Positions 3,690-62,378 of a stretch of DNA of 64,000 nt are shown one piece after another. Numbering within the stretch: position 1 is the stretch's first letter; every line of letters starts with the position of its first letter. The notes beneath the pieces are model-generated. The model was given only the letters and a program-made list of their open reading frames with translations, was not told the DNA's origin and did no database searches. The position numbers were made by a program, and so were the translations under genes. Location of the stretch: IMG/VR virus record IMGVR_UViG_3300009414_000001, positions 1-64,000 of that record. One strand, 5' to 3'. The stretch is from a virus.

Positions 3690-4422
3690 TTACCTCCTTA
3701 TCGTCATTTGTACAATCAAATGCAGGCGTGATAGCCGACATCTCACCCACACTGTTGACATTCATAGGAAGTCCAAAGGTGTTTCTTTTGTTATACTTTT
3801 GTGTTTCTTTTGAAATCCGTTCGAACTCCATTACTGTCATAGTTTCCTTTAATGACTCTAATCGCTCAATCAATTCAGGCACAGGCTTATTAACCATATC
3901 AATAGGAAGAAACTGCAATAAAACACGCATCACTTTGATCTCGGTCTTTTGTTTTTGCGTAGCTTCCTCATCAATGCAAAGTCGCATCTCTTCTAAGTGC
4001 TGCTCAGCCCATCCGAATAATGGTGTAATGCGATACTCTAGCTTTTCCCCCAGTGTAGATACTTCTGACTTTTCAATACTTCCAGTCGTTACTTGGTCGC
4101 CTAATAACTGCAAGTCAAAATCAACATGGTGCTTATCACCACAGCCGCACTTGTAAGTGATCAACGTTGAAGTATCTTCGGTTACATACAAGTAAATCCA
4201 AAAGATTGCCGCCTTTCTATCTTGAGCCGTCCAATACAATGATGACGTTTCTGGCTTAGCAGCGTCATAAGTCGTATTTAAGCGGTCTAAATAGCGTGTC
4301 GCTATCTCTTGCTCCATATCTGGCGATAAGTCTGCGAAATCGACGCACACTTGCACTGTAGGGACATCAAAGGTAATGCTTTTGCTTTTATCTGTTGGTA
4401 ATGTAAAGGCTGGGATAATCAT
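3625..4422 (-). CDS. Baseplate hub/tail assembly protein with Zn-binding motif
   Basis: 265 residues. Residues about 95-106 carry YKCGCGDKHHVDFDL, a Cys-x-Cys...His-His cluster typical of the T4 gp26-like baseplate hub assembly/chaperone family in contractile phages. The C-terminal half is helical and charged. It is tightly packed between the tube-like gene (2 bp gap) and the small gene it overlaps. Role as a hub assembly factor is inferred from motif and context. Confidence 0.5.
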   Translation of the reverse strand: MIIPAFTLPTDKSKSITFDVPTVQVCVDFADLSPDMEQEIATRYLDRLNTTYDAAKPETSSLYWTAQDRKAAIFWIYLYVTEDTSTLITYKCGCGDKHHVDFDLQLLGDQVTTGSIEKSEVSTLGEKLEYRITPLFGWAEQHLEEMRLCIDEEATQKQKTEIKVMRVLLQFLPIDMVNKPVPELIERLESLKETMTVMEFERISKETQKYNKRNTFGLPMNVNSVGEMSAITPAFDCTNDDKEVSAANKTRVHMPFRCHDYIAKI

Positions 4423-7323: not shown

Positions 7324-8868
7324 TTATTTAATAAGTACAGGCTCGCCTTTCGTGCGGCGGTTAGTACCCGTTACACATAAGCCCCAACGACAAGTCCAAA
7401 GATCGAACTCAGTTTGTTTTACTTCAAACCAGAAAGGTTCAACACCGTCATCATCAGGATTGCGTGGTTTAACAAGCGCGCCCGAAGTAACAAACGACTC
7501 ACCGATTGTGTTAAGTAATCGAGATAAGCCTTTTTTGGTGATGCCATCTGGCTTGTGGCGTAATGCATTAGCACCAGCATGAAACTGCTTGCTAAACTCA
7601 TCACAGACAGAGCCTACGTGCTGGAATCGCAAGTAATCACGCTTACCCCACAGAGTTAAGGCGTCATCAATAAATAAGCGTCCGTTATCAACGTTAATTT
7701 TATTAATGCGAACATCAACCATTGCGCTGTAATCGGGGATACCTACACCTTTTACTTGAATTAAATCAGCACGTTGAATCGTCGCCAAATCAACGCCAGC
7801 AGGAGAGTAATGCACACCCACCGTAGCACCTGTTGTAATGTCACGACCTTTTGCTTTTGCGGCAAAGGCAGAGCCAGACAAACCCCAAATAGCACGACCA
7901 CCGTAATAGGGATCTTTTGCAGTGTATGGGAAGTGGTATAGCGCCATATGGTAGTTGTTGATACCTAATGCTGGCGCTGCTAATAATGCAGCTGCATAGG
8001 TAATCGACGGCACCAAATCGGCAAAACTATCGATTAGGCGATCAGTGGAGTAATCTGCCAACTTAGCTAGGTAAGTGGCGTCATACATGCCCATCGCAAC
8101 ATAAGCAGTTAAGTACTCCATTGAATAATGCAATACATCAAGCGCTTTAATCATATCGGAAGCGTCAATTGCGCCACCAGCAACGGGCTTAGTGAATGCT
8201 TTATTTAAGTCTTGAGCTTCTGCAAAAGTAGCATCAGGACGTAAAGCAACATTGATAACTGAGCTGCGATTAACAAGTGTTTCTATGAACATGTTAACGC
8301 CACCATCATCAACAGCTTCAACATCAAGGCTTACAACCCAATCTTCAAGCTCAACAGCGCCATTAATACCATCTTCCGTTACTTTGATGGCAATAGTGGA
8401 ATCTGTATCATTTTTAACGATATCAATAGTACGGACGCGATCAGAGTCGCCATCAACCACATAAAAAGCAGCCCACGCCGTTGAGATAGCAACGACCTGA
8501 GTACCATATGAATCAGTTGATACCGTGGTAGGTTGTGCTTCACCTGTATTATGTGCCTGAATAACTGGGAACGAGGCATCAGAAGCGACAACACGCACAA
8601 CACGACCATCACTCGCTGAAACTGACTCGCCCAACTGGCGTAAACAATCAGCATCAGTACCGACACTAGGGTGCCATGGCTTACCTAACACTGACTGCCA
8701 GTTTTCTTCATTGACGCTTAAGACTTCAAAAGGTTTACCTTTTGGCGAAACTACGACTGCACCAAATCGATTGTTAGCACCTAAACCACCAGCAGTTAAT
8801 GTACCGCTAGAGTTAATGGCATTAATAACCGTTTGAGCTACTTGAGACAAGCTAGAAGGTATCTGCAT
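7324..8868 (-). CDS. Contractile tail sheath protein
   Basis: 514 residues. The C-terminal third carries the sheath pattern: NGRLFIDDALTLWGKRDYLRF followed by a helix (DEFSKQF) and a final WFEVKQTEFDLWTCRWGLCVTG strand pair that forms the handshake between subunits. The middle has IINNYHMALYHFPYTAKDPYYGGRAIWGLSGS-like content typical of gp18-type sheaths. The sheath contracts to drive the tube through the host envelope. It overlaps the next upstream gene by one base. Confidence 0.8.
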   Translation of the reverse strand: MQIPSSLSQVAQTVINAINSSGTLTAGGLGANNRFGAVVVSPKGKPFEVLSVNEENWQSVLGKPWHPSVGTDADCLRQLGESVSASDGRVVRVVASDASFPVIQAHNTGEAQPTTVSTDSYGTQVVAISTAWAAFYVVDGDSDRVRTIDIVKNDTDSTIAIKVTEDGINGAVELEDWVVSLDVEAVDDGGVNMFIETLVNRSSVINVALRPDATFAEAQDLNKAFTKPVAGGAIDASDMIKALDVLHYSMEYLTAYVAMGMYDATYLAKLADYSTDRLIDSFADLVPSITYAAALLAAPALGINNYHMALYHFPYTAKDPYYGGRAIWGLSGSAFAAKAKGRDITTGATVGVHYSPAGVDLATIQRADLIQVKGVGIPDYSAMVDVRINKINVDNGRLFIDDALTLWGKRDYLRFQHVGSVCDEFSKQFHAGANALRHKPDGITKKGLSRLLNTIGESFVTSGALVKPRNPDDDGVEPFWFEVKQTEFDLWTCRWGLCVTGTNRRTKGEPVLIK

Positions 8869-9518
8869 TATTCAGCATCCTTCTTTGTGTCAGTGGCTTT
8901 AGATGCTTTAGCTTTTGCTTTAGCTGGCGTTTTAGCTGGCGTTTTAGCTTTGGTCGCTGTTTTAGTGCTTTCAGCATTTTCGGCTTCGGCTTTTGCATCA
9001 GCTTCGGCTTTTGCATCAGCTTCGGCTTTTGCATCAGCTTCGGCTTTTGCATCAGCTTCGGCTTTTGCATCAGCTTCGGCTTTTGCATCGGCTTCGGCTT
9101 TTGCGTCAAGCTCTTCTTGTGTAGGCTCTTTTTTTTGAGAAGCCTCAAGAGCTGCCATAGCCTCATCAAAAGCAATTTGCTTTGATTCAGCGAATTCAAT
9201 AGCAGCAATGCCTTTTGCATTTAATGCTTCGGCCTGCTCTTTTAAGTTATCAGCAATAACTTGGGCTTCACCTAACTCAACACTTGCAACATCGACAGCC
9301 AGCTGCTCAGCAGATTTTTCTTCAAGCGGAATGATGTCACAATCAATTGCACTGTTAACGGCCTTAATATTGGCTTTCACAGCTTTAGCGGTAGTTATGT
9401 CCAGCTCAAACTTTTGTCCTTCGGGTGCTTCGTTATACGGCAAGATATTTAAGCCTAAAACACTAAGGGAAAAGCCAGAGCTGTTCATAATCGCCAGCGC
9501 TACTTTATTTTTTTTCAT
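8868..9518 (-). CDS. Virion-operon protein with DAKAEA tandem repeats
   Basis: 216 residues. The N-terminal domain (1-80) is globular. Residues about 85-135 are helical and acidic. Then come seven DAKAEA hexapeptides, which would form a charged single alpha-helix, and a Lys/Ala/Thr-rich tail (KAKTPAKTPAKAKAKAS). Encoded between sheath and capsid genes. Possibly a linker, decoration or assembly protein; no homologue recognised. Repeat number is likely to vary between relatives. Confidence 0.6.
   Translation of the reverse strand: MKKNKVALAIMNSSGFSLSVLGLNILPYNEAPEGQKFELDITTAKAVKANIKAVNSAIDCDIIPLEEKSAEQLAVDVASVELGEAQVIADNLKEQAEALNAKGIAAIEFAESKQIAFDEAMAALEASQKKEPTQEELDAKAEADAKAEADAKAEADAKAEADAKAEADAKAEADAKAEAENAESTKTATKAKTPAKTPAKAKAKASKATDTKKDAE
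8983..9108 (-). repeat. Seven tandem 18-bp coding repeats
   Basis: On the plus strand the unit GCTTCGGCTTTTGCATCA is repeated seven times end to end (first five identical, last two with single changes). On the minus strand each unit encodes the DAKAEA hexapeptide. Near-identity at the DNA level points to recent slippage or recombination. Confidence 0.95.
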
Positions 9519-27899: not shown

Positions 27900-28314
27900 G
27901 TTTCATACCAGCCAACAAGCAAAACAGCAACAACTTATCTTTAAAATCAAATAAAAAACCTACTTGCTAAATATACCATTTATAGAAATAGCGACAAGTA
28001 GAGCGTTAGCAAATAAATTAAACAACGCTTTTGCTGGCCTCTCTAATTGCCATAACATAGGATATGGCAATTAGATACAATTCACTAAGTCGACAAGTCA
28101 CAAGCAAAACCACCAAAACACGAATAAACCCATTCCTTAAAATCTGCGTAACTTCACCTTAAAAACAAAATAATATCGACACAGCTACTTGCTTCTTTTC
28201 GGAATATAACAAGTAGCGTTTATACTCGTCAATAAGCAGACGATCACCCAATGGATCGCTTCTTGCTTAGATAGCTTTAATTATTATTTTTACAACTAAA
28301 AACTAAGGGAAATT
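27900..28314. other. Non-coding region with inverted repeats
   Basis: About 415 bases with no convincing gene. It holds a perfect 13-bp inverted repeat TCTAATTGCCATA...TATGGCAATTAGA (28042-28075) and two hairpin-like units with CTACTTG...CAAGTAG ends (about 27960-28003 and 28184-28216). Near 28235-28270 a further GACGATC...GATCG pairing occurs just before the repeat-peptide gene. Related words (TACTTG and GGCAATTAGA or GCAATTAGA) recur near 19790-19857 and 33483-33514, the latter before the recombinase gene. Confidence 0.6.
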
Positions 28315-28725
28315 ATGTTAAATTATATATTCTTATCAATCATGTTGGCTTTTAACCCAGCAGCAGAATCAGCAACAAGCAATCTTGATCAAGGCACGCC
28401 ATCAGTTCAAGGTAGCAAAACAAAGCGTGTTGATTTTAATTTACTTGGCAGCAAAACAAAGCGTGTTGACTTCAACGTGCTCGGCAGTAAGTCAAAGCGA
28501 ATAGCTTACGGTAGTAAAAGCAAGCGCATCGCTTACGGTAGCAAATCAAAGCGTATTGATTTTAATCTGTTAGGTAGTAAGTCGAAGCGAATCGACTTTA
28601 ACTCATACGGCAGCAAGTCAAAACGAATTGACTTCAATATGCTTGGCAGCAAATCAAAACGCATCGACTTTAATATGCTTGGTAGTAAATCAAAACGCAT
28701 TAATGCTGATTCCGTCAAAATATAA
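28315..28725 (+). CDS. Exported peptide with nine GSK(S/T)KR repeats
   Basis: 136 residues. The N-terminus (MLNYIFLSIMLAFNPAAESA) looks like a signal peptide with likely cleavage after ESA. From residue 33 there are nine copies of GSK(S/T)KR(I/V), most followed by DFN plus two hydrophobic residues, two by AY. The product is strongly basic, and each unit has a Ser/Thr and a dibasic Lys-Arg. Synonymous codons vary among repeats while the amino acids are kept, so the peptide is under selection. AAGGG ribosome site; terminator at 28748. It heads the phosphatase/sigma/kinase cluster. No known family. It could be a periplasmic ligand, a multi-peptide precursor or a phosphoacceptor. Confidence 0.7.
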   Translation: MLNYIFLSIMLAFNPAAESATSNLDQGTPSVQGSKTKRVDFNLLGSKTKRVDFNVLGSKSKRIAYGSKSKRIAYGSKSKRIDFNLLGSKSKRIDFNSYGSKSKRIDFNMLGSKSKRIDFNMLGSKSKRINADSVKI

Positions 28726-28747
28726 ACACGACTAAATCAATAATATA

Positions 28748-28774
28748 GAAAGCGGCGATTTATTGCCGCTTTTT
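28748..28774 (+). terminator. Terminator after the repeat peptide
   Basis: AAAGCGGC / GCCGCTTT arms with an 8-base loop and T-run. The phosphatase gene follows, so the peptide may be made in excess or from its own promoter. Confidence 0.85.
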
Positions 28775-28831
28775 TGTGTGTTGCGCAAAATTGTTGTAAA
28801 GTAGCTCCCAATGAGATGGAGCTAATTATCA

Positions 28832-29569
28832 ATGCTAAATTTAAGCAAACATTTAGAAGTTGAATTAAACACAGAAGGCGTTGATTACTTTGTTGGTGAC
28901 GTACATGGTCACTACGACGAATTAATGAACGAAATGAAGCGTGTGGGCTTCAAGGAAAGTACAGATCGCCTTTTCTTTCTTGGCGACTTATGCAATCGAG
29001 GCGATGATTCAATCAAATGCCTAGACTTGCTTACCGAAAAACATAAAACACTTACAGCTTACTCATTGGAAGGAAACCATGAGAATCTAATAAGTGAATT
29101 GCCCTACAACTCAAAAATCGAAGAACAATTAAAGCGAAGCAGCACAGGCGGTCAATGGGCAGTTGATTGTTATCACTTCGAACCCTCTGTATTTAGAAGG
29201 CTAACAGGTATCATAAAGGCTAAGTGCTTTAACGCTATAACTGTCAAGACATCACTCGGCAGTATTGGCTTAGTTCACGCTCAAGCACCTGATGACTGGG
29301 CTGTTTTCAGTCACAGTAAAATACCTAATGACGTACTGTTTAACGGCCTATGGAGTCACGAAAAATACTCTAAGCCTGCAAGCGAACTAAACCCCATCAA
29401 AAACATCGACCTCACTATTAGTGGACACACTAATTCAAGCGAAATTGTAGTCAAACAAAACATGATTTGGATTGACACTTTACGTAATGGCGGAAGGATA
29501 ACAATAATAAGCGCCGCAGAAGCTTTTGAGTTGATGAAAACTGAGAGAGCAAATGAACGAACAAGATAA
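28832..29569 (+). CDS. Ser/Thr phosphatase, lambda-PP type
   Basis: 245 residues. GDVHGHYDEL (about 22-31), FFLGDLCNRGDDS (about 48-60) and LEGNHENL (about 80-87) are the three metal-binding motifs of PPP-family phosphatases; LVHAQAP and ISGHTNS supply the later histidines. Phage lambda phosphatase is about 221 residues. It is coupled to the sigma gene by a 17-bp overlap, and likely dephosphorylates targets of the linked kinase, possibly the sigma factor. Confidence 0.85.
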   Translation: MLNLSKHLEVELNTEGVDYFVGDVHGHYDELMNEMKRVGFKESTDRLFFLGDLCNRGDDSIKCLDLLTEKHKTLTAYSLEGNHENLISELPYNSKIEEQLKRSSTGGQWAVDCYHFEPSVFRRLTGIIKAKCFNAITVKTSLGSIGLVHAQAPDDWAVFSHSKIPNDVLFNGLWSHEKYSKPASELNPIKNIDLTISGHTNSSEIVVKQNMIWIDTLRNGGRITIISAAEAFELMKTERANERTR

Positions 29570-30194
29570 ACACAGGTTAACATTCCTTATCCCTCGCTGG
29601 AACGATGGCGACAGAACCGCCATCAATGAAGTAGCTAAAATAGTCGAGCCATGGGTTAGAGGTTTCGCTTCGCTTGCTATCGATAAAGAGCACGAAAGTG
29701 TAATGGTTGCCAGTAAAAAGATACCCACAATATTAGGCATGTGGGACGTTAACGAGCAAACACAAGAAGTAATGGTAAGGTTTGCTATTCATCAAAATTC
29801 AGTGACAAAATTAACCACTCCTTTAGCTCTTTACCAGCTATTGAGGTTTATGACCTACAGGATTTTAAAAAACAAAATTGAGGCTATAACAAAGCAGTCT
29901 GAGAATAGAGTCTCGGTCAGCGCAATGGATCCCGAAGAGCAAGATTTAATGGAAGGAGCGGCAAACAAGCAAAATGCCTCTGATATGGTTACGCTGCTAG
30001 AGCACCTTGAACATATCAATATAAAGCACCCTGACATGGCGATGGCTTACGCGATGCATCACATCGACGGTCATACCACCCAAGAAATATCTGACATAAC
30101 AGGGCAGACAGTAAGAAGTATTCAGCGTAATATAAAGCTAGTGAATACAGAGTTATACGCGCACTTAATGACTATAAAAACGGAAGCTTCGTAA
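29553..30194 (+). CDS. ECF sigma factor, ECF43-like
   Basis: 213 residues. Region 2-like sequence RWNDGDRTAINEVAKIVEPWVR lies near the N-terminus. Region 4 is AMAYAMHHIDGHTTQEISDITGQTVRSIQRNIKLVNTEL (about 160-200), a helix-turn-helix of the ECF_sigma type that is usually encoded beside Ser/Thr kinases. In Vibrio parahaemolyticus EcfP/PknT such a sigma is activated by threonine phosphorylation rather than an anti-sigma; the same logic is inferred here because no anti-sigma is encoded. One-base overlap with the kinase. Confidence 0.75.
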   Translation: MNEQDKHRLTFLIPRWNDGDRTAINEVAKIVEPWVRGFASLAIDKEHESVMVASKKIPTILGMWDVNEQTQEVMVRFAIHQNSVTKLTTPLALYQLLRFMTYRILKNKIEAITKQSENRVSVSAMDPEEQDLMEGAANKQNASDMVTLLEHLEHINIKHPDMAMAYAMHHIDGHTTQEISDITGQTVRSIQRNIKLVNTELYAHLMTIKTEAS

Positions 30195-33100
30195 TGGATT
30201 TAGACGTTCTTGATATTGTAGAGAAAGCACTTTTAGTTGATGAACCAGCAGAGAGATTGAAACTAATCTCTGAGAGCTGCGGCAATAATCAAGAGCAAAT
30301 CGATTCAATAGTTTTCTTAATAGATGTTGTTAGCGAAGAAATAGAGCAACCAGAGCTTACCGCTGATGACGTCAAGGAAGCTTACGAAGTTCCAAGTGAC
30401 GAATTATCTGCCTTTGATATCCTAGCTATAGTCACAGAAGACGGAATCACCACCCAAGACCAAGAAAAGCTAGTTATAGAGCTTTGTGCTGGTGATGAAA
30501 GCAAAGTAAAGGAAGTTAATCGCCGTCTTGAAATGCTCTCTGATGATATCGATGAAGCGATCAACGAAAACATAATACAAGAAAGCTACAAGTCACTAAA
30601 AAACGGCGGCATCAACGACCCTAAAGCCCTCGAAGGCTTAATTGTTAACGACTATCGATTAGATTCCTTTATAGATAAAGGCTCTTACGGTTTTGTCTAT
30701 AAAGGCACGCGAATCGATGGCAAAATGAAAAAACAACAAGTTGCCATAAAAGTCATTAACCCGTCCATCAAAAACATTCTTCCCTTTGATTTAATTGACC
30801 GTGAAGCTGACATCATGGCGATGCTAAATCACAAATACATTGTTAATGTGTTGCATGTAGGTAGCGTTAATTACAATGGTATGTTTTTAGATTGCCATAT
30901 AACAGAGTTTGTTAATGGCTGTAATATATTCGAAGCCTTTCCTTTATCACTAGACAATCTGATAGCTAAAATTAAGTGTGTTGCTAGGGTAGCTAAAGCA
31001 TTAGAGCACTCGCATAAAAACAAGCTTATACACGCTGATATCAAGCCTGAAAACATCCTTGTTCGTTACTCTGAGAAGACTGAAAAAGAAAAGGAAATGT
31101 TTCTTAGGATCATGTGTGAGACTGATGTGGGCAATACTGGCCTAGTCTCTCATGATTTAGAACCTGTACTTTTAGATTTCAGCATATCGCCAACATCTAA
31201 CGCCCAAGGTACATCAAAAGCTGATGCGATAAAGTTTGCCAACAACTACAGATCACCTTACAGCTCTCCTGAATATCTACAAGGAGAGTCTTTATCTGCT
31301 CGCTCGGACGTTTATTCGCTCGGCGTATTACTGCATGCATTGATTATCAACAAAGAGCCATGCGAAAGAGGGCAGTTTGAAGAGTGGCCTAGCGACATAT
31401 TGCTAGGTAAAAAAGAATGGGATTACAACTGGTGTCTTGGTGACTTAGACGCCATCATCAAAAAAGCATGCGCTAAAAACCCTGATGACCGATACAACAA
31501 TGTTACTGAATTCAAAAATGACCTCTATAAGTTTATAGAGTTCAAGCCAGTTTCAGCGAAATCTGAGTCCTTGCCAGCGAAAGTATACAAGAAAACCCGA
31601 AGAAACCCTTTAATGATGACGGGCTTAGCCATGGGGTTTGTGTCGTTCCTATACGCTGCCTTTTACTCTATCGATGCAATAGAGCAGAATGCTCAATATC
31701 GTCATAACCTAGCGCTGTCGGAAGAATATTCCACTATGCTAAGCGAAGTACTCAAGCCTGTTGTTTCTCGAAAAGCTTTAAGTAAAGATTTTTTTGAAGA
31801 CAGCTTAAGTAGTTGGAACAAGTTTGATAACGCAACAACCGAAAAGCGCGTTTACTTCTTATCGTCATTAGCTGAGATGGCAACTAATGCACAGCATTTT
31901 GATATCGCGTCTGAAATGTACGAAAAGCTATTAAAGTCCTTTGAAGATGAATTAAACGAAAAGGACAGAATAAAGCACACATCAAAGTACATTGTCGCAT
32001 TAAACAAGAGTGGGCAGTCTGAAAAAAGTCAGCGAATAGCTGCGCCTATGTTCGATTCGATGGTTGGTCATAATTATGATGATCCCGTTATTGTCGGCGC
32101 TTTCTTGGAAATGTTTGACAGTGCCAGTCGATACATATACGAAAGCTACGAAGAAAGCGTGCCACTATTGGAAATACTTAGACAAATAGAGCAAAAGCCA
32201 CAGTTGTTTTTAGCGCCAGAGCATAGATCACTACTTCATTACCACACTGCAAAAGAGCGTTATTATTCTTTCTTTGGCGATTACGCCAGCACAAGTATCG
32301 GTCAGAGTGAAGACTTCTATCAGGAAGAAATGGTGCCAGTATATAAGGACACCAGAGTTGATATAGACAAAGCCCTCTACTTGCTTAAAGGAACTCGTCA
32401 AGAGGAAGAGTATAGGCATCAATATTTAAGCTTAAGCGCTAGAATTGAATACGAACTAAGAAACACTAAAGCCGCCAAAAAACTGAGCAATAGAGCTATT
32501 AGATACGCCAAGGAAAACTGGGGAGACAGCCCGATAACCCAGCGAGCTTATGTAATAGATTTCACGGTTAATCGCCACGTTGATTTAAATAAAATGCTTT
32601 CATCTGCGAGAAACGCCGATAGAATGCAAAGCCGCAGAGGTGTTAGTCGTGATGACTTGATCACATCGAGCTATTACCTTGCTGATGCATTACTGATGAG
32701 TGGAAAGCTAGATAAAGACAAGGCATTAATACTCAGTCTAATTAATAAATACACTCCTGAACAGCTTGATTATGAAGGCTTGGACTCAATGGAAGCGATG
32801 ATAATTGATTATCTTGGCACTACTGAGTTTGATAAAAGTGACGCTGACAATAAGATACTTGCAAGCTATGCGCTGGCGGCAGCTGAGCGCATGAAAACAA
32901 TTGAACCTAACGAATTCGAGCAAGAGAAGTATAATTTTGCTCGATTAATTAACCTGTATTTTAACGACGAGCTAAAAGGTAGTGATATTTTCAACTACTT
33001 TAATAAAACAAAGAAGTTTCCGTCAAACCTACAAGCAACCAAATACACCTACTTAGCCATTTTATCTATTGACCTTAAAGAGCATGAAGTAGCTAACAAC

Positions 33101-33340
33101 CTCGTAAGTTTTGCCAGACAGGCGATGGTATACACAGAATTTGAGCGCACAAACTCAGTCAACCTGATGAGCATGTTTGCCTCAATCACTAAAGTTTATA
33201 TCGCTATTGGCGACATTGACGCCGCAAGAAACACCTTCAACAACGCTGCAACAATCTACAGAACGCATGAAGACGCACTTTCTGGAAGTTATTTTGCAAA
33301 GCAACTCACTGAATTAAATGATAAATTAATATTTTCATAA
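30194..33340 (+). CDS. Membrane Ser/Thr kinase with TPR-like sensor domain
   Basis: 1048 residues. Two related N-terminal helical repeats (about 1-50 and 70-120) precede the kinase domain (about 154-450): glycine loop DKGSYGFVYKG (161-171), Lys186, catalytic loop HADIKPEN (280-287, HAD instead of HRD), DFS (328-330, instead of DFG) and SPE at 358-360. One membrane segment at about 472-492 divides the cytoplasmic kinase from a 550-residue helical, TPR-like outer part that would face the periplasm. Partner of the ECF sigma and phosphatase. The exported repeat peptide could be its ligand. The metal-binding Asp is kept, so activity is plausible. Confidence 0.85.
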   Translation: MDLDVLDIVEKALLVDEPAERLKLISESCGNNQEQIDSIVFLIDVVSEEIEQPELTADDVKEAYEVPSDELSAFDILAIVTEDGITTQDQEKLVIELCAGDESKVKEVNRRLEMLSDDIDEAINENIIQESYKSLKNGGINDPKALEGLIVNDYRLDSFIDKGSYGFVYKGTRIDGKMKKQQVAIKVINPSIKNILPFDLIDREADIMAMLNHKYIVNVLHVGSVNYNGMFLDCHITEFVNGCNIFEAFPLSLDNLIAKIKCVARVAKALEHSHKNKLIHADIKPENILVRYSEKTEKEKEMFLRIMCETDVGNTGLVSHDLEPVLLDFSISPTSNAQGTSKADAIKFANNYRSPYSSPEYLQGESLSARSDVYSLGVLLHALIINKEPCERGQFEEWPSDILLGKKEWDYNWCLGDLDAIIKKACAKNPDDRYNNVTEFKNDLYKFIEFKPVSAKSESLPAKVYKKTRRNPLMMTGLAMGFVSFLYAAFYSIDAIEQNAQYRHNLALSEEYSTMLSEVLKPVVSRKALSKDFFEDSLSSWNKFDNATTEKRVYFLSSLAEMATNAQHFDIASEMYEKLLKSFEDELNEKDRIKHTSKYIVALNKSGQSEKSQRIAAPMFDSMVGHNYDDPVIVGAFLEMFDSASRYIYESYEESVPLLEILRQIEQKPQLFLAPEHRSLLHYHTAKERYYSFFGDYASTSIGQSEDFYQEEMVPVYKDTRVDIDKALYLLKGTRQEEEYRHQYLSLSARIEYELRNTKAAKKLSNRAIRYAKENWGDSPITQRAYVIDFTVNRHVDLNKMLSSARNADRMQSRRGVSRDDLITSSYYLADALLMSGKLDKDKALILSLINKYTPEQLDYEGLDSMEAMIIDYLGTTEFDKSDADNKILASYALAAAERMKTIEPNEFEQEKYNFARLINLYFNDELKGSDIFNYFNKTKKFPSNLQATKYTYLAILSIDLKEHEVANNLVSFARQAMVYTEFERTNSVNLMSMFASITKVYIAIGDIDAARNTFNNAATIYRTHEDALSGSYFAKQLTELNDKLIFS

Positions 33341-56303: not shown

Positions 56304-59300
56304 ATGAGTGACAATATCCCCAGCGATAAACTCTCTAATAATGAAGCTGTAGCAAAAGTAAAGGAATCTACTAGCGCCAGCGAAGTTTTTGAGGTGTTTG
56401 AGCAATACTACCAAATAGGCGAGCACGCTAAATCAACGAAAGGTTTTGGCGTAGAAAAGATAAAAGGCGTAGCTATCGCCACTAGTCGAAAAGCAGCTAA
56501 CCAAGCTGCCATGGATATAGTGGAAAAGTATCGCAAAGGTGAAACATTAACAAGTGACGATTTAGATGCACTCAAGGGTTATACAGGCTTGGGTGGTATT
56601 GGTGCAACCATCAGTGAATACTATACGCCTGAGTATGTCGCAGAAGGCACATGGGATGCGCTTAAAGCTAACGGCTTTGAAAACGGCAATGTTTGCGAAC
56701 CTAGCTGCGGCGCTGGCGTATTTAACGGCACTAAACCTGATGGCGTTGTTATTACTGGCTCTGAAATTGATAGTACTTCAAGCACGATAAACACTATCCT
56801 ACACCCCGAAGATGAAATAACTAACCAATCATTTGAAGAGCTGGCGATGTCAGTGCCAGACGGTCATTTTGATTCGTTTATTGGCAATGTTCCTTTTGGC
56901 GATCAGCGTGGTAAATATGCCCAGCTCGATCCGCAGTATTCAAAAGTTAAACATATGGAGCAGTATTTCGTTACTCGCGCCATCGACAAAACAAAAGCAG
57001 GCGGCTTGATTGCGCTTGTTGTTCCGACACAAATCATTGATAGAAAAACATTCAGCAAGTTTCGAGAAGAGATCAGTTTAAAAGCTGAATTCTTAGGCGC
57101 GCATCGTATGCCTAGCGGTGTTTTTTCAAATAACGGCACCGATGTAGTAACTGATGTTCTTCTTATGCAGAAACATAGTGAAGACCTTTTCTTCAAAATT
57201 GCAGACCTTGAAAAAAGCACACTGAAAAGTGCAAATGTATTATTTGATAGCTTCATATCTGGTAAATGGTTCGAAAAAGAAGGTAAACGCTTTGTGATGG
57301 GCGAAACATCAAGAAGTGACTTTCAAAATCGATTACAAGTCGCTCGCGGTGAATTAACCAATGATGCCATTAAAAATAAATTAGCGCACAAATTTGATAG
57401 TCGCATTGATTTTGAATTGATTGAAGCAACAGCCCCTACTGTGATTGTTAATTATAACAAGGGTGATACTCGCCTGATCAATGGTGGATGGTTTGAATTT
57501 GATGGCGAACAATGGGAGCCAAGCGGATTCACTATCCCAAATAGCGGCAAGATTGACAAGGCCATCTTTGGCACCGAATCATATCAAGAGTTAAGCGCTA
57601 GCTTAGAAACAGCTGAGCAAGCACTCGCATTAAAACTTAACTCAGAAAATATCAAAAACGTTGCCAAGCTCACACCTAGAGCATTATCACCCATCACTAA
57701 GCATGCACTCGATACAATGCAAAAAGCCGATAAATCAAACCATGACTTGATTTATCGCGGCACATTAATCGGGCAAATGATTAACGAATACATGGAAGCC
57801 CCAAGCGAAGATCAGCGCCTAAAAATTATTGCCATGATCAAAGATGAGCAATTTAAGACAGGCATAGCCAAAAACAACAAAGCGATTGCTGGCCTATCAC
57901 GCAGTTTAGACCGCTTTATCAATGCAACTGATAGCGATGGCAACCTATCTGATTTAATGAGCGGAAAAGCACAAGGCGTAGCAGCACAATACGACTTTAG
58001 CGACCCTGTTGATGTCGTTAATTACCTTTTCTTAGATAAAGACTTAATGCCCGTTAACTTGACTGAATTTAACGACTTATATACGGGCGATGATTTAACT
58101 ATTGAGCAGCTGGCGAAGTTTCCTGAAATAGCTTTCTCAGCAAGTGGTGATTCTCTTTACCCGTTTGACCGTTATTGCTCTGGTGATATTAAACAAAAGC
58201 TTAATGATTTATCTTCGGCAATCATGCGCGAGCAAGACCCTGCTGTTAAAGCGAAGTTTATCGCACAGCAAGAGCGCATCAACGAACGAAGAAAGAAAAC
58301 GTCGATTGATGACATCAAGTTCGAGTTAAACGCAAAATGGATGCAAAGCAACTACGTTACTGAATTCTTGGCCTCGCGTGATATTGATATGCGACTCAAT
58401 GAACAAACAGGGCGATTTGTTACTTACAGTGAAAGCAATACCTTTGCTGGTCAGTTAGAGCAGTACTTGAATAACGAAGCTTTCAGTAAGCGAAAAGAAG
58501 ATCGCGCCGACAACCTAGCTCGTATTCATACACTGCAAAGTGAATTTGATTTTTGGATAAGACAGCATGCTGATGCTGACTACATCACAAATCAATACAA
58601 CATGACTTTTAACGCCAACCTACCTTTTGAGCATGGCGAGCACGATTTAGGGCTTGATCAGGTTTCAGGCAAAGTTAAAAACATGCCATTCCAAAACAAA
58701 GAGATCCGCAGAATGTCCGAAGACGGGCGCGGTATTTTAGCGTTCGGCACTGGCTTAGGTAAATCTCATACAGCTAATGGCCTTGTCGCTTTAGACTTGG
58801 AAAAAGGACGTTGTACAAAAGTTTGTTATGCGGTGCCTAAATCACTCATCACAAATTGGTATCACGAAACTAAGCATTTCTTTGGTGATAAACGGAGAAT
58901 TTTATTTGTCGGGCTTGAACCTGTTAAAAACAAAAAAGGCGTTATTCAGCAAGATAAGTGGCTTGATAAAGATGGCGAGCACAAGATTAATGACGTTACG
59001 GGCGAACTAGAATACCGCGATCAGGTAAAAGAGCTTGGCAGCAAAGAAATATTAGCCCGTATGGCTACCATCCCTCATACAAATTACGACATCGTGGTGA
59101 TGACCAAAGAGCAATTGGCTGCTATCCCTATGCGCCCTAGCTCCATGGAAAAGTATGTAGACAACATGGTCAACAAAGAGCTTATGAGTGGCGCTGATGC
59201 TATTCGAAAACTTGGTGGTCAAGGAGCCAGCATTGGCAAAGATGGCTACAAGCAAGCTAAACAAAAAGAAGGCTTTCAATCTAAATACCATGCCAATCAA

Positions 59301-62300
59301 ACTACCAAGTCTGGTGAGTATCCATTCTGGGAAGATATGCGCTTCGATAAGCTTATTATCGATGAAGCTCATAACTACCGAAATGCATTTAAAGCTGGTC
59401 GTAGAGCAAATGAAATCGCTTACTTACCAACAGGCGGCGTAGCTAAATCAGCAGCAGACCTAGCCATCAAGTCGAGTTACTTACGTGAACAAAATGGCGG
59501 CAAAGGTATTCATATGCTGACAGCCACGCCAACAGTAAACAGCCCTACTGATATTTTTAATATGCTATCGCATGTTATGACGCCAGCGGAATGGGAAGAG
59601 TACGGGATTTACACGGTAGATGATTTTATCAAGGTCTTTGGTCGCATTGAGACTATGGACGTTCAAAAGCTCTCAGGTGAAGTCGAATCAAAAGAAGGCT
59701 TAGCAGGCTTTAAGAATTTAGACGCACTTAGAAGTATTTACCATCGCTGGGTTATAGCCAAAGAAGTTCAAGACGTTGCAACTGACGTTAAAATGCCAGA
59801 TAAAAAAGTTGTTGATAATAAAACAACACTCAATCAAGAGCAGCTTGACATATATGAAGAGCTACAAGATAGAGCGTTAAACATTCTTGACGCAGAAGAC
59901 GAAGACGGCGAACCGACCGACTTTATCTTTAGTATTATTCGAGATATGGATCGTGTTGCAACTGACATTGATTTGTACCACAAAAGAATTACCTTTGTGT
60001 TACCAAAGAAACACAAAGAAGTGTTAAGTGACATTGTTATACCTAGCGTTATCACTGAGAAAAAAGAAATCGTTAAGAAAGCTGGTGAAAAACTAACGGT
60101 AGTACATGAGCTTAATGCAAGTGTTGATAGCAGCGGAAAAAACACCATCGTTGTAATTAATGAAAACTTTGAAGATGAATTCATCAAGGCACTTGTTAAA
60201 GCTGGTATTGATCAAAAAGACATTAACCACCCTATTACACCTAAATATGCAAAGTTAATTGAGCGCTTGCGTGATGATTACAAAAATGGTGGTAAACAGG
60301 TTATTTTCACCGAAGAAAAAAGCCAACACCAAAAGCTTAAGCGGATCATTGCTAATAACTTAGGTGTACCACTAGACCAAATAGGCATAATCAATGCTGA
60401 TACGGTTAGCAAAGGCAAGAAATCAACCGACTTAGATAAAGAGGCTGGCGCTCTTGAAGATTTAGCCGACCGATTTAATACAGGTGCTTACAAGTTCCTT
60501 ATCTGCAATAAAAAGGCAGAAGTAGGTATAAACTTGCAGCACGGCTCTACTAAGCTGCATCACTTAACAATACCATGGACACCAGCGAGCTTGATCCAGC
60601 GATTCGGGAGGATCTGGCGCATAGGTGGTACTCAAGAGTTTGTTACAGAGGAAAACTATCTAGCCGAAGGCTCTTTTGATGAATTCCGTTTACGGGCGTT
60701 AAGCAAAAAAGCCAGCTGGCAAGCCTCGTTATTAAAAGGCGATGCAAACAGCGTGGATTTTGAAGAGGTTAACGATCTGGCAGAAGCTCGGTTATTACTT
60801 GCTAAAAACCCCGAAGAACTTAAAGCCCAATTAGAAGCACAAGCACAAGCATCTAAAGATAAAGCAGCCTTAAGAGCCAAGCAGCGTATATCTACAGCGC
60901 TTGGTAAGTACAATCGCCTACGAAACAAAAAGGAGCTTTGGGGTAAAGAGGAAACTGACCTTAAAGAACTTAAAGCAACAATTAAAGCAGCTGTGCAACA
61001 AGGTGTTATCGATACAGATCCAACCGACTTACCAGCTGATCAATTCGTCATTGAACCTATCAGTGGTCAGACGGTTAAAGCTGGCGATATTTACACCAGC
61101 AAAGAGCGTTACAGCTCAGGTGATATTTATGAAGTTGTCAAAATTAACCATGTTAAAAACAAAGTTAGCCTAAAAATGATTTTTGGTACTTACGGCTTGG
61201 GTAAGGTGTCAGAAACATTACTAACTAACATCACTCAAAACTACGAGTTATCAACCTACAGCGCCAGCGAGTCAATAGTTAAGGCTGAGTTCGCTAAAGG
61301 CGGTAAGATGAGTATTAGCCTACTATCAAGCAAGCTAAGCACTATTAGCAAAGAAATGTTTTTCAAGTATGCAACAGCGGAAAACTATGAAGGCTTTGAA
61401 GGTGAAAGCGCATGGCAAGGAAACCAAATTGCCAATATTGCGGTAACTTCTGAAAACGTTATTTACCCAAGCAAGCATGATCAAGTGTTGGTGACAGCTT
61501 TCGCTAACTACGGGCTTGAGTTAATACGAGCCAATAAAGAAGCGGAAATTGATGAATCTATGGGGCGCGCCTTGTTTGGCTGGTCTTATCTGCAATCAAT
61601 ACGAAGTTATGGCACCAAGCCCACTACCCATCAATTAGTTGAATGGGAAGTTGCGATCAAAGCCAGCACTATTGACGCTCTAAAAGAGTCAGCGAGTGAA
61701 AACTTAGATGATGGTTTATGGTCAGTGTATAGCGAGCAAGGCGGCAAGATCAAATCAATGGTAGCTGACTCAATACCAGACGGTTATGATGACAGCAGCC
61801 CGTTTGCTGATGAAGTCAGAAACATCACACGCACTATTGTTGAGGGATTAAACGACATTAGAAAGTCGCTGATCAATGAAGCCAACCGAATCAAGGAGGA
61901 AGCAGAGGCCGCTAGAAAAGAAGAGGCACTTGCAAAGCAAACAGCAGCGCTTAGGGAGCGATACCCTGAGACTCAACAAGCTGAGCCTGAGTCTGTAGAA
62001 ATACCTAGCGGCACTTTGACGGATCAGCAACTCCTTGATAATGTTAATGCTGATAATCAATGGAGTACGTTAATAAGCGATTTTGGTGAAAAAACCTTGT
62101 GGTTTAAGACTAACCGCAAAACAAAACAAGTCGCTAAAGGTGCTACTGGTCGCTTATACTTAAATCTTAAGGATGGTGGGCGCTGGGACAAGGCGATGTT
62201 TATTGATGTCGGCAGTCGAGAGCTTAAGCAACCTAATGCTAGAGTCATTATTGCAGAGCAACATAAAACCAGCGAAGAGCACACCAAGATCCGCTCTATA

Positions 62301-62378
62301 GTTCGCTTATGTGAAGAGCTTGGTGTTACCGTTAGTGATCATAGTGAGTTCTATAACACTGACCTAATCGAAGGATAA
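56304..62378 (+). CDS. darB: DarB-like methylase-helicase antirestriction protein
   Basis: 2024 residues. N-terminal N6-adenine methylase: EYYTPEYVAEG (106-116), SAM motif EPSCGAGVF (132-140) and catalytic NVPF (195-198). SNF2-like helicase: Walker A GTGLGKS (815-821), DEAH (1020-1023), TATPT (about 1072-1076), a large insertion, then QRFGRIWRIGG (motif VI, about 1432-1442). The C-terminus has helical, charged segments (about 1500-1580 and 1880-1920). P1 DarB (about 2255 residues) is packaged in virions and protects entering DNA from type I restriction. AAGG ribosome site. Confidence 0.85.
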   Translation: MSDNIPSDKLSNNEAVAKVKESTSASEVFEVFEQYYQIGEHAKSTKGFGVEKIKGVAIATSRKAANQAAMDIVEKYRKGETLTSDDLDALKGYTGLGGIGATISEYYTPEYVAEGTWDALKANGFENGNVCEPSCGAGVFNGTKPDGVVITGSEIDSTSSTINTILHPEDEITNQSFEELAMSVPDGHFDSFIGNVPFGDQRGKYAQLDPQYSKVKHMEQYFVTRAIDKTKAGGLIALVVPTQIIDRKTFSKFREEISLKAEFLGAHRMPSGVFSNNGTDVVTDVLLMQKHSEDLFFKIADLEKSTLKSANVLFDSFISGKWFEKEGKRFVMGETSRSDFQNRLQVARGELTNDAIKNKLAHKFDSRIDFELIEATAPTVIVNYNKGDTRLINGGWFEFDGEQWEPSGFTIPNSGKIDKAIFGTESYQELSASLETAEQALALKLNSENIKNVAKLTPRALSPITKHALDTMQKADKSNHDLIYRGTLIGQMINEYMEAPSEDQRLKIIAMIKDEQFKTGIAKNNKAIAGLSRSLDRFINATDSDGNLSDLMSGKAQGVAAQYDFSDPVDVVNYLFLDKDLMPVNLTEFNDLYTGDDLTIEQLAKFPEIAFSASGDSLYPFDRYCSGDIKQKLNDLSSAIMREQDPAVKAKFIAQQERINERRKKTSIDDIKFELNAKWMQSNYVTEFLASRDIDMRLNEQTGRFVTYSESNTFAGQLEQYLNNEAFSKRKEDRADNLARIHTLQSEFDFWIRQHADADYITNQYNMTFNANLPFEHGEHDLGLDQVSGKVKNMPFQNKEIRRMSEDGRGILAFGTGLGKSHTANGLVALDLEKGRCTKVCYAVPKSLITNWYHETKHFFGDKRRILFVGLEPVKNKKGVIQQDKWLDKDGEHKINDVTGELEYRDQVKELGSKEILARMATIPHTNYDIVVMTKEQLAAIPMRPSSMEKYVDNMVNKELMSGADAIRKLGGQGASIGKDGYKQAKQKEGFQSKYHANQTTKSGEYPFWEDMRFDKLIIDEAHNYRNAFKAGRRANEIAYLPTGGVAKSAADLAIKSSYLREQNGGKGIHMLTATPTVNSPTDIFNMLSHVMTPAEWEEYGIYTVDDFIKVFGRIETMDVQKLSGEVESKEGLAGFKNLDALRSIYHRWVIAKEVQDVATDVKMPDKKVVDNKTTLNQEQLDIYEELQDRALNILDAEDEDGEPTDFIFSIIRDMDRVATDIDLYHKRITFVLPKKHKEVLSDIVIPSVITEKKEIVKKAGEKLTVVHELNASVDSSGKNTIVVINENFEDEFIKALVKAGIDQKDINHPITPKYAKLIERLRDDYKNGGKQVIFTEEKSQHQKLKRIIANNLGVPLDQIGIINADTVSKGKKSTDLDKEAGALEDLADRFNTGAYKFLICNKKAEVGINLQHGSTKLHHLTIPWTPASLIQRFGRIWRIGGTQEFVTEENYLAEGSFDEFRLRALSKKASWQASLLKGDANSVDFEEVNDLAEARLLLAKNPEELKAQLEAQAQASKDKAALRAKQRISTALGKYNRLRNKKELWGKEETDLKELKATIKAAVQQGVIDTDPTDLPADQFVIEPISGQTVKAGDIYTSKERYSSGDIYEVVKINHVKNKVSLKMIFGTYGLGKVSETLLTNITQNYELSTYSASESIVKAEFAKGGKMSISLLSSKLSTISKEMFFKYATAENYEGFEGESAWQGNQIANIAVTSENVIYPSKHDQVLVTAFANYGLELIRANKEAEIDESMGRALFGWSYLQSIRSYGTKPTTHQLVEWEVAIKASTIDALKESASENLDDGLWSVYSEQGGKIKSMVADSIPDGYDDSSPFADEVRNITRTIVEGLNDIRKSLINEANRIKEEAEAARKEEALAKQTAALRERYPETQQAEPESVEIPSGTLTDQQLLDNVNADNQWSTLISDFGEKTLWFKTNRKTKQVAKGATGRLYLNLKDGGRWDKAMFIDVGSRELKQPNARVIIAEQHKTSEEHTKIRSIVRLCEELGVTVSDHSEFYNTDLIEG

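Follow-up and report, generated by a model that had tools for sequence, protein, structure and literature searches.

Why would a phage carry a membrane receptor kinase, a sigma factor and a phosphatase behind a gene for a short repetitive peptide? The question is raised by positions 28315-33340 of IMG/VR record IMGVR_UViG_3300009414_000001, within the stretch of 64,000 nucleotides (positions 1 to 64,000 of the record) that we analyzed and refer to as the window. The window covers part of a P1-like virus record of 89.8 kb. Its portal protein shares 35% identity with that of phage P1; it also codes for a replication initiator and a tail sheath and, just 3' of the kinase gene, for an integrase. 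P1-like phage-plasmid is a fair description of the record, which may be incomplete. We consider it moderately probable that the four genes form a mobile peptide-signalling circuit, in which an exported peptide would be read by the kinase and would act through the sigma factor to tune lysogeny and lysis.

The four plus-strand open reading frames (ORFs) agree exactly with the coordinates given in an earlier, sequence-only reading of this DNA, which had also noted that the last three overlap (by 17 nt, then by 1 nt). The phosphatase, sigma and kinase genes make up an overlapping operon, and the peptide gene is a unit of its own. The peptide gene (28315..28725, plus strand, 136 aa) has its own start signal, AAGGGA. 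Its product begins with a hydrophobic, export-type segment ('MLNYIFLSIMLAF'), from which export is predicted, and continues with nine GSK[ST]KR[IV] units, most of them followed by DFNxL. It is strongly basic and has no Cys. The sequence-only reading had counted the nine basic repeats correctly but had given each a single Ser/Thr; in fact there are two such hydroxyl residues per unit, S2 and S/T4. When the nine units are compared, synonymous differences amount to 0.82 per site against 0.07 for nonsynonymous ones, so the repeat is a protein under purifying selection and no DNA artefact. The peptide had no reliable family match in Pfam, NCBIfam, PADLOC or PHROGs, and its AlphaFold2 model (predicted local distance difference test, pLDDT, 48) was uninformative about the fold.

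For the other three genes, the phosphatase, extracytoplasmic function (ECF) sigma and kinase motifs reported earlier were all recovered by Pfam, and NCBIfam and PHROGs back these assignments. The first encodes a PPP-family Ser/Thr phosphatase of the NinI/lambda-phosphatase-like type (28832..29569, plus strand, 245 aa; Pfam Metallophos 6e-14, PHROGs NinI-like 4.5e-42) with intact GDVHG, GDLCNRG, GNHE and later His motifs. The second encodes a divergent ECF-type sigma factor (29553..30194, plus strand, 213 aa) whose match to Sigma70_ECF is weak (2.5e-5), with regions 2 and 4 recognisable. The third encodes a membrane receptor Ser/Thr kinase (30194..33340, plus strand, 1048 aa; Pfam Pkinase 1.7e-24) with an N-terminal extension, a Hanks domain at about aa 150-447 that has HAD in place of HRD, one transmembrane segment at about aa 472-496 and a C-terminal domain, aa 498-1048, that is predicted to be extracytoplasmic. 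The outer region had been called similar to tetratricopeptide repeats (TPR), and AlphaFold2 bears this out: the model is a TPR-like superhelix (pLDDT 84, predicted template modelling score 0.81), and a fold search with it matched TPR superhelices. The ORF list of the window holds no anti-sigma gene between or beside the sigma and kinase genes.

The order peptide, phosphatase, sigma, kinase recurs at five independent loci, including the window. The second copy was recovered by running the sigma factor against 369 genomes, and the further ones by alignments. One copy lies on a podovirus-like element (G140:C15 = IMGVR_UViG_2893759370_000002) with portal, major head protein, terminase, ParA and integrase genes. 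Two lie on elements whose genes include one for N15-type replication and one for a protelomerase (Pfam ResT-TelK) (L051 = IMGVR_UViG_3300027967_000009, and L055 = G448:C388), and one is an apparent chromosomal remnant with a broken sigma gene and a decayed peptide (G408:C240, L053). Divergence is high, with full-length identities to the window proteins of 25-27% for the kinases, 38-45% for the phosphatases and 20-24% for the sigma factors. The units differ as well: GSKSKRIDFN in the window, and GKKGKIRI, GSSRGKVRI and GSHSGKIRI in the others. The sequence-only reading had singled out absence of the peptide from homologous kinase/sigma loci as the observation to look for, and the peptide is present in five of five phage-type modules. 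Together with the open-access papers searched, in which we found no description of the four-gene module or of the peptide family, this conservation supports the earlier view of a genuine, undescribed-looking module. No such peptide accompanies the canonical kinase/ECF pairs, whether these lie on chromosomes or on a Pseudoalteromonas plasmid. Two chromosomal loci, L060 (G390:C1, 1187-5522) and L076 (G384:C223, 5000-10788), combine a kinase, a NinI-like phosphatase and an ECF sigma without an adjacent peptide, and may be related to the ancestral form of the phage operon.

The telomere-phage modules have a further conserved gene 3' of the kinase, whose product is small (89-124 aa) and matches nothing in Pfam (L051 7377-7751; L055 11234-11503; L054 4898-5167; L053 2836-3105); no counterpart was recognised among the ORFs of the window. 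One genome holds several broken module copies, L053 (G408:C240), L054 (G408:C89) and L056 (G408:C108), with a frameshifted sigma, a decayed peptide and lone sigmas, which are possibly the remains of past phage insertions. At L055 (G448:C388:1-12000), a perfect palindrome with 4,263-bp arms reaches the contig start and is centred at 4263/4264, beside the protelomerase gene. It looks like assembly through the hairpin telomere of a linear phage-plasmid.

The peptide gene has its own control signals. A sigma54-type promoter precedes it at 28253..28266 on the plus strand (GG at 28253-28254, N10, GC at 28265-28266; TGG-N8-TTGC). The same -24/-12 signature, GG-N8-TTGC, stands 59-62 nt before the peptide ATG in all five modules, and its chance occurrence per shuffled 90-bp upstream region is about 0.001-0.006. 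Downstream, a terminator-like hairpin (28747..28775, plus strand; AAAGCGGCGATTTATTGCCGCTTTTTT) is a predicted intrinsic terminator. A hairpin follows the peptide gene in five of five modules, with a T-tract in four (three of those outside the window). A conserved hairpin in the 5' untranslated region was considered and rejected: an inverted repeat precedes the start in the L017 copy and those of the telomere phages, but the window sequence folds no better than its shuffles. A search for a known RNA element returned none. Two inverted repeats, CTACTTG(C)...CAAGTAG, lie upstream of the promoter in the window (27960-28007 and 28185-28218) and could be sigma54 activator sites or phage operators.

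The peptide also has relatives on host chromosomes. A search of 84,980 genomes for the exact pattern GSKxKR-x6-GSKxKR gave ten matches, all chance or low-complexity. This search missed the family because the units diverge, and a profile hidden Markov model (HMM) was needed. With an HMM built on the peptides of the four phages, homologues turned up in about 20 more genomes from the family to which G140 belongs, and a refined model added others. We examined 25 chromosomal loci in related Gammaproteobacteria, leaving out the weak hits L135-L138, in which the match covers the repeats and not the leader. The chromosomal peptides start with a short hydrophobic leader (MLSSLILSLAMS...) followed by tandem units, mostly G-x5-[VI]-R-I (for instance, GTRKGQVRI), that are near-uniform inside one protein and differ between species at positions 2-6. 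As an unbiased test, we built an HMM from the chromosomal peptides alone. The five module peptides ranked at the top of 854 ORFs, no other ORF reached E<=0.01, and the window peptide scored E 1.2e-4, so it belongs to the host peptide family. All 25 chromosomal genes have GG-N10-GC upstream, mostly as TTGGCAC-N5-GC; with the five module genes, 30 of 30 peptide genes have a sigma54-type promoter in a similar place. In wider sampling, matches came from 10 of 395 genomes in the order, several of these being weak and confined to the repeats, and from 1 of 303 in the class; the family thus looks nearly confined to one bacterial family.

At all 25 chromosomal loci, the gene directly upstream of the peptide codes for a protein of about 1,500 aa (in L119 it is cut by the contig end). 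The L110 copy is a transmembrane protein with a Reg_prop propeller and Y_Y_Y, PAS, GGDEF and EAL domains. Like the phage module, this pair joins a homologous exported-type peptide with a sigma54-type promoter to a transmembrane sensor; it differs in that the output is a cyclic di-GMP (c-di-GMP) enzyme rather than a kinase and sigma factor, and in its fixed chromosomal place, with an M16 peptidase gene and fadJ/fadI as flanking genes wherever the contig reaches. The M16 gene, of the insulinase type, lies upstream of the pair at L110-L128 and L147-L151. Its product is a candidate processing enzyme of the host peptide, or the arrangement is only synteny.

Divergence in the host receptor is concentrated in the propeller (57%, against 14% for GGDEF-EAL). 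The distance between peptide units tracks the propeller distance when M16, FadJ, FadI, PAS and GGDEF-EAL are controlled for (partial r 0.37, P 0.0005; rank-based version 0.35, P 0.001), although the pairwise distances are non-independent and the phylogenetic control is imperfect. M16 distance shows no residual correlation with unit distance, which speaks against a mere clock effect. On this evidence the receptor beside it most probably has the host peptide as its ligand. That one peptide class stands beside two unrelated large extracytoplasmic sensors likewise points to a ligand, and the host peptide/receptor family indirectly supports the idea that the outer domain of the window kinase senses the peptide, as the sequence-only reading had surmised.

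The circuit we propose draws on three features absent from that reading: the sigma54-type promoter, the host peptide family and, in the telomere phages, the position of the module. The host would transcribe the pro-peptide gene from the sigma54-type promoter, which would add an input from the host state, and the short pro-peptide would be exported. Its repeat units, whole or cut, would bind the outer TPR-like domain of the kinase, either while still in the periplasm or once released and taken back across the outer membrane. Binding would change the activity of the kinase towards the co-encoded ECF-type sigma, presumably by phosphorylation, and the NinI-like phosphatase would reset the state of the sigma. 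The sigma would in turn alter phage gene expression and most likely tune lysogeny versus lysis independently of SOS.

We infer the role in lysogeny from the placement between telN and repA and from the neighbouring cI. In L051 and G448:C388 convergent telN and repA (phrog_4913) genes flank the module, and in G448:C388 a cI-like repressor gene lies beside it. At the telN-repA locus, linear plasmid phages keep sensory modules that set off lysis without SOS (PMC10432266). The VqmA-Qtip and TF-smORF modules of these phages occupy the same site near cI and are thought to be SOS-independent (PMC10432266, PMC12802170). Those modules, however, pair a cytoplasmic transcription factor with a small anti-repressor, and neither paper uses the word 'kinase' in its text. 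The telN-repA placement does not apply to the P1-like window.

Several observations weigh against this circuit. The module codes for no protease and no exporter. The outer domains of the peptide-bearing kinases are no more acidic than those of peptide-less ones, despite the basic peptides. The co-divergence holds for the host propeller receptor, the phage kinase pairs being too few. Within its family, the peptide of the window has diverged furthest, and its unit lacks the VRI ending. Finally, the module need not serve the same purpose in a P1-like phage as in a telN-repA phage.

The missing exporter would also suit a peptide that never passes between cells. It could be a periplasmic co-sensor or inhibitor whose export, amount or breakdown reports the state of the envelope or host to the kinase of the same cell. 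The sigma54-type promoter, which links the peptide to a host activator protein, fits this explanation, as does the related kinase PknT, which activates EcfP upon stress from polymyxin, a cationic peptide (PMC8999054). We nevertheless judge it unlikely: the uniformity of units within a protein, their variation between species and their co-variation with the propeller look like ligand/receptor specificity, which a stress reporter does not need.

The net charge of +7 to +20 after the leader and the lack of Cys could instead mark the peptide as an antimicrobial or anti-competitor effector, with kinase, sigma and phosphatase governing its production or self-protection; the small post-kinase protein of the telomere-phage modules could then be an immunity protein. 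However, the promoter and terminator of the peptide gene set it apart from the sigma operon, the host copies adjoin a c-di-GMP receptor rather than transport or immunity genes, and no toxin match was found in PADLOC, Pfam, NCBIfam or PHROGs. We therefore regard an effector as improbable.

The module could also be ordinary cargo of the ECF43 type, with the peptide an unrelated neighbour or a structural repeat. EcfP/PknT of Vibrio parahaemolyticus and EcfK/PknS of Xanthomonas citri, of group ECF43, likewise place an ECF-type sigma beside a Hanks kinase, and they too lack an anti-sigma gene. The window kinase shares the N-terminal extension, transmembrane segment and TPR layout of PknS and PknT (PMC13147305); PknS (9eed) is among its closest solved relatives by sequence, and the match covers the N-terminal extension. 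The hallmark of ECF43, however, is a region 2.2 without the acidic DAED residues (QTTA type), where phosphorylation of a threonine activates the sigma (PMC8999054). The module sigmas do not have this hallmark. They keep acidic residues (DVNEQTQE in the window; SPDDIAQE, GVNDIAQT, CPEDISQT and CPNDIAQT in the others), and the canonical sigmas L002, L058 and L059 do not align with them at region 2.2. Activation through phospho-threonine as in EcfP thus cannot be assumed, and we do not file the module under ECF43; the likeness to EcfP that the sequence-only reading had drawn is functional at best. The module further adds a phosphatase and an exported-type repeat peptide and is phage-borne, and its sigmas share 20-24% identity even among themselves. 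Since the peptide occurs in every phage-type module with a conserved promoter and terminator, and at no canonical pair, ordinary cargo is a very improbable explanation.

Mimicry is just as hard to credit. Here the phage peptide would target the host Reg_prop/GGDEF-EAL receptor and shift c-di-GMP, and the kinase would sense something else. Phage and host peptides are indeed homologous, and both kinds occur in G140, where the phage peptide has the unit GKKGKIRI and the host peptide ATRRGMIRI. Close mimicry predicts that these match, whereas they differ, as expected for a private channel, and each phage peptide comes with a receptor kinase of its own. A defence system, also suggested earlier, can be set aside because its PADLOC matches are generic, essentially to the kinase domain, with no family-level match to PD-T4-6, MADS6, PglW or MkoA.

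Among known peptide circuits, arbitrium (AimP-AimR) and the Rap-Phr systems of Bacillus phages likewise place a phage-coded peptide precursor beside a TPR receptor. The pro-peptide gene near its receptor gene, a feature of RRNPPA systems, is shared by all five modules, each in one short cluster, and pheromone precursors sometimes hold several pheromone copies in tandem (PMC6458997, PMC11343458). RRNPPA receptors, in contrast, are cytoplasmic (helix-turn-helix-TPR or Rap-type) proteins of Firmicutes whose peptide is imported by Opp, whereas the module receptor is a membrane kinase of Gram-negatives with its TPR-like domain after the transmembrane segment and a sigma output. No RRNPPA protein was among the best fold matches of the outer domain.

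Large stretches of the window show no DNA similarity to phages or plasmids, and single window proteins used as queries found no relatives among viral contigs. A 2,024-aa ORF follows the portal gene (56304-62378), and a low-complexity repeat stretch lies beside the tail sheath gene on the minus strand (8852-9518), reading DAKAEADAKAEAD or, in a second frame, QKPKLM.

In Firmicutes, phages are known to signal to one another with peptides (arbitrium), and Gram-negative phages are known to eavesdrop on host small molecules; we know of no Gram-negative phage that runs a peptide circuit of its own. If the proposed circuit is correct, Gram-negative phages would possess a peptide channel that runs by way of a kinase and a sigma factor, and a host family of exported peptides would come to light together with its likely receptor, ligand and receptor visibly co-diverging. 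It would also offer a testable way into what TPR-bearing, ECF-associated kinases sense. The phages that carry the module are several, unrelated and marine. More tentatively, and with somewhat less confidence than an even chance would warrant, we suggest an undescribed class of Gram-negative peptide pheromones: sigma54-controlled, exported pro-peptides with species-specific tandem units and large extracytoplasmic receptors. The hosts would use a c-di-GMP receptor, and several unrelated phages would have adopted the peptide with a private sequence and a kinase/phosphatase/sigma receptor for the choice between lysis and lysogeny. The sequences suggest a peptide 'language' in Gram-negative bacteria that marine phages may have adapted.

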